From Candidatus Azambacteria bacterium (lineage in GTDB: Bacteria; Patescibacteriota; Minisyncoccia; GWC2-36-17; M10-OD1-4): DNA of 22,240 nucleotides. The DNA is taken from assembly GCA_016200995.1 (NCBI GenBank), contig JACQDS010000015.1:1-22240 (forward strand), given 5' to 3'. The position numbers and the translations under genes are program-made. The notes under the pieces were generated by a model. It was not told the DNA's origin and ran no database searches. It worked only from the letters and a program-made list of their open reading frames with translations. Below are positions 209 to 20,791 of the stretch, in pieces (the first letter of the stretch is position 1; every line of letters starts with the position of its first letter).

Positions 209-982
209 CTAGGAAGCTATAGTTAATACATCAAATCCATCTTTCGTGACAACAACGGTATGTTCAAAATGAGCGGAAAGTTTGCCGTCAAGCGTTTCTA
301 TCCCCCAGCCGTCATCGGAGTATTTTACCCTCCAATCTCCTTCCGTTATCATCGGCTCAAGAGCGAGGACCATTCCGGCTTTTAGCGTCTCTCCTGCGCC
401 TTTTTTCCCAAAATTAAAAACATAAGGGTCCTAGTGAACCTTATAGCCAACCCCATGACCGGCCAGATCTCTGACGATGCCAAAATCGCTCTCCTTTTTT
501 ACAAAAGATTGAATTGCGTATCCTATATCTCCCGTGGTTGCGCCCTCTTTTATGGCGTTGATCCCTTCGTAAAGCGACCGCTATGTCACAAAAACAAGCT
601 TCTCCGCAACCTTGCCGCCTTTTCCGCCTACTATCTTTGTTCTTGCCGCATCAACACATAGATCCTTAAACCAAAGCCCAAGATCAAATGAAAAAAGATC
701 GCCTTTTTTTAGCTTTCTTTCCGAAGGAATTGAGTGCACCACCTCTTCATTTATGCAAGTGCACATCGTTGCCGGATAAGGATAGAGCGCTCCTCTTGGA
801 TTATAGTTTTTAAAAGAGGGGGTCGCCTTTTTTTTAAGTATCAGGCTTTCGGCAAGTCCGTCCAGATATTTTGTCGTGACGCCGGCTTCAACATTTTTTT
901 CAACCTCGTCCAAAACCTCCGCAAGCTTATATCCGGCCTCTCTTAAAATACTTATCTCATCTTTTGTTTTGATGGTTGTCAT
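209..982 (-). pseudogene. map: Methionine aminopeptidase type I with two in-frame amber codons
   Basis: A single uninterrupted frame of 257 codons encodes a complete type I methionine aminopeptidase, which removes the initiator Met from nascent proteins using a dimetal centre. All expected residues are present: His83, metal ligands Asp100 and Asp111, His176 in GHGVG, His183, Glu209 in ALEPM and Glu240 in FEHT. Two TAG codons interrupt it. One is at 581-583 (codon 134, in VT-stop-RSLYEG) and the other at 431-433 (codon 184, in VH-stop-DPYVF). Family members normally carry Glu at both places, so each fits a GAG-to-TAG change. Without readthrough the product stops after 133 residues and loses three metal ligands. 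The gene lies 2 bp after adk, an arrangement common in this operon. It could be a recent pseudogene, an amber-readthrough gene, or sequencing error. Confidence 0.85.
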
Positions 983-12396: not shown

Positions 12397-13590
12397 TTAA
12401 GCTGAAATACTCAATACAACTCCTGCTCCAACTGTCTTACCTCCTTCACGGATGGCAAACCTCTGCTTCTCTTCAAGAGCAACCGGAGTTATCAATTTAA
12501 CCTTAACCTTAATTGTATCTCCAGGCATAACCATCTCTGTTCCGGCTGGCAATATGATATCCCCCGTCACATCTGTCGTTCTAACATAAAACTGGGGTTT
12601 GTATCCTGTGAAAAATGGAGAATGTCTTCCGCCTTCCTCTTTTGTAAGAACATAGATCTCAGCCTCAAAGTCGGTATGCGGAGTGACAGAACCGGCTTTT
12701 GCAAGAACCTGTCCTCTCTCAACATCCTCTTTCTTTTGGCCTCTGAGCAATATTCCCGCGTTGTCTCCAGCCATAGCCGAGTCAAGACTCTTGTTGAACA
12801 TTTCAATTCCTGTGATAACGCCTTTTTGAGTAGGTCTGATACCGATGATCTCAATGTCATCACCAACTTTAACCTCTCCTCTTTCAACTCTTCCTGTGAC
12901 GACAGTTCCTCTGCCTTCAATTGAGAAAATATCTTCGATAGGCATAAGAAACGGCTTTGATGTCTCTCTGACAGGATCCGGGATCCACTCGTCGCAAGCC
13001 TTCATAAGCTCAAGAAGTTTCTGAACATATACTCCATCTTTTGTTGTTTCCTCAAGAGCTTTAACTGATGAACCTCTGATGAAAGGAGTATTCTTTCCAT
13101 CAAATCCGTATTTTGTCAAAAGATCCCTGATCTCCTCCTCTACCAAGTCAACAAGCTCTGGGTCGTCCGCCAAGTCCATTTTATTCAAATACACAACCAA
13201 AGCCGGAACGCCAACCTGCTTTGCGAGCAAGATATGCTCTCTTGTTTGTGGCATAGGTCCGTCCGGAGCGGCAACAACCAAGATCGCGCCGTCCATCTGA
13301 GCGGCGCCGGTGATCATATTCTTTATATAGTCGGCATGCCCGGGAGCGTCAATGTGAGCGTAATGTCTCTTTGCTGTTTCATACTCTGAATGGTGCAAAG
13401 AAATGGTAATACCTCTCTCCCTCTCCTCCGGAGCTGCGTCTATTTGGTCGATAGACTCAAGTCTTGCCTTTTGTCCGGCAAGATTCAAAGCATGCAAGAT
13501 TGCAGCTGTTGTTGTTGTTTTTCCATGGTCAACGTGGCCGATCGTGCCGATGTTAACATGGGGTTTTGTGCGTTCAAATTTTTCCGCCAT
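12397..13590 (-). CDS. tuf: Elongation factor Tu
   Basis: 397 residues, normal length. The GTPase delivers aminoacyl-tRNA to the ribosome. G1 is GHVDHGKT (18-25), G2 is RGITIS (59-64), G3 is DAPGH (81-85; most bacteria have DCPGH), and G4 is NKMD. Domains 2 and 3 are complete, with [20 protein letters not shown] and the terminal [16 protein letters not shown] sigma70-type promoter at 13720-13748 gives a leader of about 120 nt containing a 20-bp palindrome. The following gene is rpsJ. Confidence 0.98.
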
Positions 13591-13761: not shown

Positions 13762-14118
13762 CTAAAACGGCAAGTCCTCAAGCCGAACCTCTCTTAAATC
13801 TTTCTTTATCCTCTCCACTTCATAATCCACTCTGAACCTCTCTTTAAACTCTCCTTTTTTTGCCGGCTCATTTTCACTTCTTTCTCGCTCAAGCTCTTTT
13901 TCTATCATTTTATCTATTGAATCCATTCCGTAATTTTCAAAGTCGCCGATATCTTCAAACCCTCTCCCGTCTCTCTCCAAAATGCGCTCGCTTTCCGGCG
14001 TCTTCAAACTTCTGGCATAATCATCAAAAGGCACCACCACATATGAAGGCTTGCCGTTTTCCATCACAACTATACCTCTTTTTGATACTTCCAATATTTT
14101 TTTGATATCATCAAGCAT
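13762..14118 (-). CDS. Phd/YefM-type antitoxin-like protein, no toxin partner seen
   Basis: 118 residues. The first roughly 40 (LDDIKKILEVSKRGIVVMEN, then GKPSYVVVPFDDYARSL) resemble the Phd/YefM N-terminal fold, with a helix followed by strands carrying the GKP-x-YVVVPFDDY pattern. The remaining 75 residues are highly charged and Glu/Arg/Lys-rich, probably partly disordered or coiled. Classical members bind their own operator and neutralise a toxin, but no Doc, RelE or PIN-like gene is adjacent. It lies between fusA and tuf, with a repeat-type leader and no Shine-Dalgarno sequence, and ends in TAG. A housekeeping regulator of neighbouring translation genes is a possible but unsupported role. 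Confidence 0.6.
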   Translation of the reverse strand: MLDDIKKILEVSKRGIVVMENGKPSYVVVPFDDYARSLKTPESERILERDGRGFEDIGDFENYGMDSIDKMIEKELERERSENEPAKKGEFKERFRVDYEVERIKKDLREVRLEDLPF

Positions 14119-14190: not shown

Positions 14191-16233
14191 CTACTTCCTT
14201 CCGGCGATGACCTCCTGCGCAACATTTTTCGGCGCCTCCTCATAACTTGAAAATTCCATACTGTATGAAGCCCTGCCTTCCGTCATTGATCGCAACTGCG
14301 TTGAATAGCCGAACATCTTTGCCAAAGGAACTTGCGCCGTGATGACTTTGATGTTTCCTCTGTCTTCCATGCTGTCTATCCTGCCTCTTCTTGAATTTAA
14401 GTCTCCCGTCACATCACCGACAAAATCCGGTGGCGTGATAACGGCGACTTTCATAATGGGCTCCAAAATTATAGGATTTGCGGCGGTAAGAGCTTTTCTT
14501 GTTGCCATGGAACCGGCGATCTTAAAGGCCGCCTCTGATGAGTCAACATCATGGTAAGAACCGTCAAATAGAGTGACCCTGACATCCTGGATAGGATATC
14601 CGGCAACAACACCTTTCTCAACCGCCTCTTTTGCGCCCTTCTCAACAGCCGGCACAAACTCCTGCGGAATAACTCCTCCTCTGATCTCGTTTTCAAATTC
14701 AAATCCGGCATTTTTCTCAATAGGCTCAACCCTGACTTTAACATGTCCGTATTGGCCTCTTCCGCCGGACTGCTTGACATACTTCTCCTCCGCCTCGGCT
14801 GTGCCTTTGATTGTTTCTTTGTAAGCTACTTGCGGAGCGCCGACTGAAGCGCTGACCTTAAACTCTCTGAACATTCTATCCACCAAAACCTCAAGATGCA
14901 ATTCACCCATTCCGGAAATGATCGTTTCGCCGGTTTCATGATCAACCTTAATCTTAAATGTCGGATCTTCATCGGCAAGCCTTCTTAAAGCTATACCCAT
15001 CTTCTCTTGGTCGGCTTTTGTTTTTGGTTCAATTCTTAATGAGATGACCGGCTCAGGGAATACGATCTTTTCAAGGATGATCGGCTTTGATTCGTCGCAA
15101 AGTGTGTCTCCAGTCGTCGTCTCTTTGAGCCCGACAGCCGCGCCGATATCTCCGGCATTTATCTCATCAACCTCTTCTCTTTGGTTTGCATGCATTCTTA
15201 AGATTCTTCCAATCCTCTCTCTTTTCTGTTTTGTTGAATTGTAAACATAAGAGCCTTTTGTGATCTTTCCGGAGTAAACTCTGAAAAAGGCCAATGAACC
15301 GACAAACGGATCGTTGGCGATCTTAAACGCCAAAGCGGAAAATGGCGCTTCGTCGCTCGCATCTCTTGTCTCCTCGACGTCCGTGTCAGGATTTGTGCCT
15401 TTTATGGAAGGAACATCCAAAGGAGAAGGCAAGTAGTCAACAACCGCGTCCAACGCCAATTGCACGCCTTTGTTCTTCAAGGCCGTTCCGCACAAAACAG
15501 GATTAACGACTCCGCTAAGCGTCGCTTTTCTCAAAGCTGATTTGATATCAGCCTCTGTTATCTCTTTTCCTTCAAGATATTTTTCCGCCAAAACATCATC
15601 TTCGGAAGCTATCATATCAAGCATCTCTTCTCTCCATTTGGCTGTTTCCAACTTCATATTTTCAGGCACCTCTTTCACCTCCACTATCTCGCCCATCTCT
15701 CCTGAAAATGTAATATATTTTTGATTGATAAGATCAATGACGCCTGAGAAATCAGACTCAACTCCGACCGGTATCTGAACCGGTATTGCCTTTGGATTCA
15801 ATCTGTTTCTGATCGACAAAAGATCCTTGTGCCAGTCGGCGCCAGTTCTATCAAGTTTGTTTATGAAGCAGATCCTTGGAACTTTGTATTTGTCCGCTTG
15901 GTGCCAGACGGTTTCTGATTGCGGTTCTACTCCGGCAACGCCGTCAAAAACAACTATTCCTCCGTCCAAAACACGCAAGGACCTCTCAACCTCAACGGTA
16001 AAGTCCACGTGTCCGGGAGTGTCTATAATATTGAATCTATGTTCGCTTGATTTGTCGTTTTCCCTTTCCTGTTCCATCCAGTCCATCACAGCTTCTCCCT
16101 CATGCACCTCGCCTATCTTATGGGAAACTCCGGTATAAAATAAAATTCTTTCTGTGACGGTTGTCTTTCCCGCGTCAATGTGGGCTATAACTCCTATATC
16201 TCTTGTTCTATTCAGTGGATAAATACGCGACAT
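14191..16233 (-). CDS. fusA: Elongation factor G lacking the switch I/G2 motif
   Basis: 680 residues. EF-G drives ribosomal translocation and, with RRF, recycling. G1 AHIDAGKTT (17-25), G3 DTPGHVDF (71-78), NKLD and the C-terminal domains II-V are intact ([18 protein letters not shown]; domain [23 protein letters not shown]). The frame passes from DWMEQERE (51-58) straight to [17 protein letters not shown]. Normal EF-G has RGITITSAATTCFW between these, so about 14 residues are missing in frame, including the Mg-coordinating switch I threonine. Adding 14 gives 694, the usual length. The junction is at 16059/16060. The stop is TAG. Neighbours are rpsG upstream and the Phd-like gene downstream. 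GTP hydrolysis by this product is doubtful if the sequence is correct. Confidence 0.95.
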
Positions 16234-20329: not shown

Positions 20330-20791
20330 TTATTCAAGTATGCCGTCTAAATTGACATCGTATAGCATCCTTTCGTTAACGTGCTTGTAATTCATTATCT
20401 CATCCTCGCGAAACCAAACTTTAATCTCTCTCTCCGCTTCCGCCGGAGCGTCCGAGCAATGGATCAGGTTTCTCACCGCTCTGTTGTCTCTGTTTGCCAA
20501 AGCGTATGAATCCAACGTCAGATCTCCTCTGATGGTACCGACATCGGATGTCAAAGGCTCTGTGCCACCGACTATTTTTTTGACAATGCCAACAGCTTGA
20601 TTACCTTCAATAATCATCGCCAAAACAGGACTGCATGTCATAAAAGAAAAATTCGCCTCCAAAATATCCCTGCCATATTCCAAAGCGCTCTTTTCAGGCT
20701 CCTTGCCGGCATCTTTTAAATTTTTGATAGCTGTGTTGCCTTTCGTCTCGCACCATTTATCATCCTTGATCTTTCTTTTGTCATAGCTCAT
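20330..20791 (-). CDS. ndk: Nucleoside diphosphate kinase, N-terminally truncated
   Basis: 153 residues from ATG 20791. The core and C-terminal part of an NDK are clear: TCSPVLAMIIEGNQAVGIVK, VGTIRGDLTLDSYALANRDN, and the phosphohistidine motif NLIHCSD with His111. Expected at the N-terminus are the first strand and the (I)KPDG motif, about 45-50 residues; the frame instead starts at MSYDKRKIKD, which aligns to the middle of long-type NDKs. An in-frame extension to 20884 adds only residues read through a terminator, not the missing domain. A promoter lies directly in front. Without the KPD lysine the nucleotide kinase activity is doubtful. First gene of ndk-thioredoxin-VKOR, 10 bp before the next. 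Confidence 0.82.
   Translation of the reverse strand: MSYDKRKIKDDKWCETKGNTAIKNLKDAGKEPEKSALEYGRDILEANFSFMTCSPVLAMIIEGNQAVGIVKKIVGGTEPLTSDVGTIRGDLTLDSYALANRDNRAVRNLIHCSDAPAEAEREIKVWFREDEIMNYKHVNERMLYDVNLDGILE

Follow-up and report, generated by a model that had tools for sequence, protein, structure and literature searches.

The fusA gene in a 22,240 bp stretch of a draft genome (the window, G000:C42:1-22240) encodes an elongation factor G (EF-G) that lacks RGITI and the residues after it, and this gap, plain in the sequence, is most likely absent from the organism. We consider it highly likely that the absence of 60 bp is an unmarked local error of assembly or joining in the draft, and not a new EF-G; the EF-G of the organism itself is very probably ordinary. 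An assembly error is favoured because unrelated kinds of damage affect further conserved genes of this draft, because no relative read carries the deletion, and because the junction coincides with the "nn" stretch of two public drafts. The draft comprises 612,635 bases in 96 contigs and is 86.72% complete.

The fusA gene and its missing codons

The window carries ribosomal protein genes, the EF-Tu gene and fusA on the minus strand (Table 1); the names were assigned by reading, except for EF-G, which was identified by profile. The open frame of fusA is uninterrupted from 16233 to 14191. In a profile search its product matches TIGR00484 over the whole length (residues 1-680) with 1065.1 bits, over the curated cut-off of 659.4, and all of the EF-G domains G, II, III, IV and V are found (PF00009, PF03144/PF22042, PF14492, PF03764 and PF00679). 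The protein is the same as elongation factor G in its domain set and profile score, and the gene also adjoins putative rpsG and rpsL (named by reading); it differs from elongation factor G in the lack of 20 residues, RGITIT through the next strand and loop. We file the gene as fusA with a probable sequence error and not as a variant EF-G. Between EF-Tu and fusA lies a gene for a 118-aa protein (13762..14118, minus strand) with a weak PhdYeFM antitoxin match below the Pfam cut-off; both sister genomes (G001 and G002) contain a relative of it.

Table 1. Positions of the genes discussed and of the fusA junction in the window
Feature	Positions	Strand	Remarks
fusA, elongation factor G, 680 aa	14191..16233	minus	TIGR00484 match; lacks 20 internal codons that the relatives read have
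Junction codons GAA (Glu) / AAC (Asn)	16057..16062	minus	60 bp of relatives absent between them
EF-Tu gene (named by reading)	12397..13590	minus	397 aa; ungapped against the sister protein; has its own RGITI
map, type I methionyl aminopeptidase	209..982	minus	two in-frame TAG (581..583, 431..433); sister protein TIGR00500
ndk, nucleoside diphosphate kinase	20330..20784	minus	out-of-frame loss of about 139 bp after the first five or six codons

In the fusA product DWMEQERE is joined straight to NDKSSEHRF at 16059/16060, the last Glu codon occupying 16062..16060 and the Asn codon 16059..16057. A preliminary description of this DNA had reported the passage and the absence of RGITI at this junction, and was right about both its place and its nature, as read from the open frame and the junction codons; its statement that the deletion keeps the frame is likewise borne out. 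The missing stretch had been put at about 14 residues (42 bp), whereas the relatives give a loss of 20 codons (60 bp). P0002, the closest protein outside the window (named as from Patescibacteria group bacterium; 91% identity to the window EF-G in alignment A2), and the proteins of both sister genomes are 700 aa long with 20 extra residues at this point; the 20-aa gap recurs in the comparison with the sister genomes, and the codons were compared in four relatives. The alignment to related EF-G proteins and the sister comparison proposed in that description thus agree with it on RGITI, which all relatives read have kept, and correct the size of the gap. Nor does the loss coincide exactly with switch I, contrary to the earlier statement: RGITIT, the end of switch I, is gone, but the earlier part of switch I is still there, and the strand and loop that come next are missing as far as DKS. 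Across the six frames of the window there is a single RGITI-like match, on the minus strand at 13416, inside the EF-Tu gene.

An EF-G is expected to carry RGITI, whose threonine we take to be the Mg-coordinating residue of switch I, and the assembled protein is without it. Switch I spans residues 39-63 in Staphylococcus aureus EF-G (PMC11190147). GTPases of this class have a switch I threonine or serine that coordinates Mg and that, in the majority of these enzymes, touches the gamma phosphate through its backbone NH (PMC9599734).

In the model of P0002, which is of low confidence, the strand after RGITI is predicted at residues 67-72, inside the lost stretch. Structure predictions made with 25 sequences each gave a mean pLDDT of 68.0 for the window EF-G and 64.0 for P0002, both of low confidence, and pLDDT does not tell the two models apart; they are too poor for a judgement on folding, and the placement of that strand is all that we take from them. 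Judged from its sequence, an EF-G without RGITI and the following strand is predicted to fail in GTP hydrolysis and in translocation, and its folding would probably fail too. The loss of function that the preliminary description inferred for such a protein is reasonable, yet the evidence points to the assembly.

Other damaged genes of the draft

Several conserved genes of the draft are broken besides fusA. At each of the two TAG positions of map, both sisters have Glu, and the draft contains only one match to map; the stops are either consensus errors or the mark of a broken gene. On the evidence of two genes we dropped the idea that TAG is recoded as Glu, since map itself ends with TAG and murD is interrupted at a Lys position by TAA. 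The stop in murD (TIGR01087), the only one in that gene, lies in frame at 679..681 of locus L057 on contig 4 of the draft, where G002 has the Lys. In ndk both the start (MTKERS) and the later part of the gene are preserved (the length of its loss was obtained by comparison with G001); the Pfam NDK match begins at profile position 54, and the draft has one ndk match. A histidine kinase gene on contig 24 (L113 3824..3833) misses about 96 codons and changes frame relative to G002, its identity resting on the best profile matches of the sister protein, which are below the cut-offs.

Lesions were compared with those of the sister genomes in a sample of 35 readable contigs of the 96 plus the window. 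In a recount over all pairs of pieces, in which a stop, a frameshift, or a gap or split of 15 aa or more counted as an event, the numbers are small: the draft as target gave 4 events in 71 genes with queries from G001 and 5 in 71 with queries from G002, and G001 as target gave 0 events in 95 genes and 1 in 67 (a 28-aa gap). With G002 as target there were 2 events in 95 genes, namely a split of 187 aa and a stop within a piece that has 34% identity; the second comparison gave 2 in 71, one of them a stop in that same locus (L093) and the other a gap of 19 aa. Counted by distinct genes, the draft is hit in fusA, map, murD, the kinase and one doubtful case, G001 in one gene and G002 in three. The lesion in ndk was added by eye, as the remaining start of the gene is too short for the recount rule. 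The split gene of G002 (L102 2012..2023) lacks 187 aa relative to G001 and continues in the same frame.

A survey with non-overlapping frames also gave lesions for the draft as target, here with gaps of at least 8 aa. Proteins of G001 matched 73 genes of the draft, with 3 stops (2 in map and 1 dropped), 2 gaps and 2 N-terminal losses; those of G002 also matched 73, with 3 stops (2 in map and 1 in murD), 1 gap and 1 N-terminal loss. The dropped stop is that of L120, where the G001-to-draft alignment has 50% identity and is unreliable. An N-terminal mismatch in L114, which may be a difference in start codon or a lesion, was omitted from the lesions. The control comparisons contained no stops: G002 proteins against G001 (95 genes) gave 1 gap and 1 C-terminal loss, G001 proteins against G002 (97 genes) 1 gap, 2 split matches and 1 N-terminal loss, draft proteins against G001 (67 genes) 1 gap of 28 aa and 1 C-terminal loss, and draft proteins against G002 (72 genes) 1 gap. 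These counts supersede a survey with antisense frames among the queries, in which a stop or gap appeared in 9 of 96 proteins (G002 against G001) and in 6 of 85 (G001 against G002). Gaps as such are found in the sisters too; it was only the draft that showed stops in conserved genes with good matches. The excess of lesions in the draft over its sisters is modest, and we regard it as support and not as proof.

The remainder of EF-G is well preserved. We scored 274 sites at which 98% or more of 116 other proteins agree, and the window EF-G has 1 substitution and 11 gapped columns at them; across the 117 proteins substitutions at these sites range from 0 to 7, and the single one of the window falls inside this range. 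The statement of the preliminary description that everything else is intact therefore holds for fusA but not for the window, in which map and ndk are broken. Neither relaxed constraint nor compensating change is apparent at the 274 sites. Four other motifs that were looked for, and that presumably serve nucleotide binding in the window EF-G, are all present.

With the rest of EF-G under normal constraint, the loss, if real, must have happened very recently. This would fit a genuine deletion in a strain that is in the minority or dying out, with an inactive protein and a fresh lesion, whose haplotype the assembler happened to choose, and a junction without Ns is also in keeping with such a deletion. 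This explanation, however, would have fusA, map, murD and ndk all freshly broken in one draft, for which an imperfect consensus is the simpler account, and we judge it unlikely.

EF-G in relatives and the search for a second copy

RGITI is a constant feature of the related proteins examined. In a database search it was kept by all 119 other proteins among the 120 listed of 8000 scored (114 established by script and 5 by reading of the printed lines); the window's own protein, P0001, which is without it, represents one sequence on one contig. At the level of genes, we searched 54 genomes, the draft included, and obtained 29 fusA loci of relatives, in all of which RGITI is present. A match of EF-G strength was absent from three of the 54 genomes (G003, G008 and G021), and G032 yielded fragments only. 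The gap is not common to the close relatives read, as would be expected of a local assembly error.

The second EF-G that the preliminary description had considered was searched for, and no second fusA was found in the 612,635 bases of the draft. Other matches to EF-G, on C15, C52 and C93 and in EF-Tu, are far weaker; we take them for other translational GTPases, with names inferred. With an intact relative as query, no fragment carrying the missing piece was found in the draft up to E = 10. An undetected second copy could lie in the missing part of the genome, as the draft is incomplete.

These results bear on a fixed and working EF-G without RGITI, in which another residue or factor replaces the switch I threonine, or which is backed by a second EF-G in the missing genome. 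Such a variant draws on the incompleteness of the draft, which leaves room for an unseen copy, and on the presence of the four other nucleotide-binding motifs. It is opposed by the absence of the deletion from every relative read, by the failure to find a second fusA or a fragment of the missing piece, and by the lack of compensating changes, with one substitution at the conserved sites; the strand behind RGITI, as placed by the low-confidence model, would be gone too. We give this variant very little credence. Still less do we credit a Patescibacteria lineage with a living EF-G that lacks both RGITI and the strand behind it, and in which translocation proceeds while GTP hydrolysis is altered or absent. 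If the deletion were true, the view that EF-G needs the switch I threonine would be overturned. A programmed event restoring the piece, for example by joining a segment at the DNA or RNA level, is practically negligible: we found nothing in its favour, the piece is nowhere else in the window and undetected in the draft, and none of the Rfam families attains its gathering score there.

Origin of the gap

An assembly error, the explanation that we prefer, also accords with the position of the junction. When shared k-mers in the fusA genes of the 29 relatives were assigned to bins of 30 nt, the bin just before RGITI ranked top of about 70 bins for 17-mers (958 of 4216 starting there), 20-mers (386 of 1734) and 23-mers (122 of 696); for 26-mers it ranked third, with 44 of 298, the two bins ahead of it having 54 each. 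The junction at 16059/16060 is the end of these 30 nt.

Similar breaks occur in other public drafts. A pattern scan of genome_contigs (84,980 species genomes by its description), run without a positive control and with records of the draft's own genome possibly absent, returned three fusA matches with a shortened stretch, two of which contain "nn" within it. In these two, L045 (DKFC01000047.1) and L046 (PMSQ01000117.1), the frame changes across the stretch. They are broken in or just after the codons of DWMEQEQE and, like the window, have lost the RGITI part; unlike the window, which keeps the frame and has no Ns, they carry the "nn", which we read as a scaffold gap, together with the frame change. 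There are no Ns at the window junction or in the 35 unmasked contigs sampled, and thus no visible scaffold gaps. A look by eye for microhomology at the junction yielded nothing of use, because the lost bases are not known.

We propose that the 60 bp were dropped from the consensus during assembly or scaffolding of the draft genome. The DNA coding for DWMEQERE is common word for word to many species, so that a short-read assembler may meet branches there, and the contig would have been ended or bridged. If the ends were then joined with neither the missing bases nor Ns between them, an in-frame chimera would result. The mixed-community origin of the draft, the exact assembly step and the intact gene in the cell are inferred. 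Local assembly errors have been described together with what they do to coding sequences, with 13 in one CPR genome before curation, and the sign given for such an error is that no single read supports the consensus at that place (PMC7111523). The window resembles the local assembly and scaffold-join errors of metagenome-assembled genomes covered there, in which unsupported joins give incomplete or wrong coding sequences while the organism is unchanged; it differs in that its join is without Ns.

Several observations speak against an assembly error. The lost length is exactly divisible by three, an outcome with a chance of one in three. The absence of Ns at the junction, the modest excess of lesions, the third rank of the bin for 26-mers and the third public match (L044), which is short without Ns, point the same way.

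The case carries a warning: where a draft genome shows an in-frame loss in a very conserved gene, the loss can pass for biology. Stretches common to several species are likely points of breakage when mixed communities are assembled from short reads; when a universal motif is lost in one draft, the other genes of that draft should therefore be checked first.

The third match in the public drafts is the fusA gene of a betaproteobacterial draft (L044 5845..5925), in which CFWI passes straight to DTPGH without Ns. Its stretch is about 7 codons below the shortest of the stretches compared, and it may be real or an artefact.
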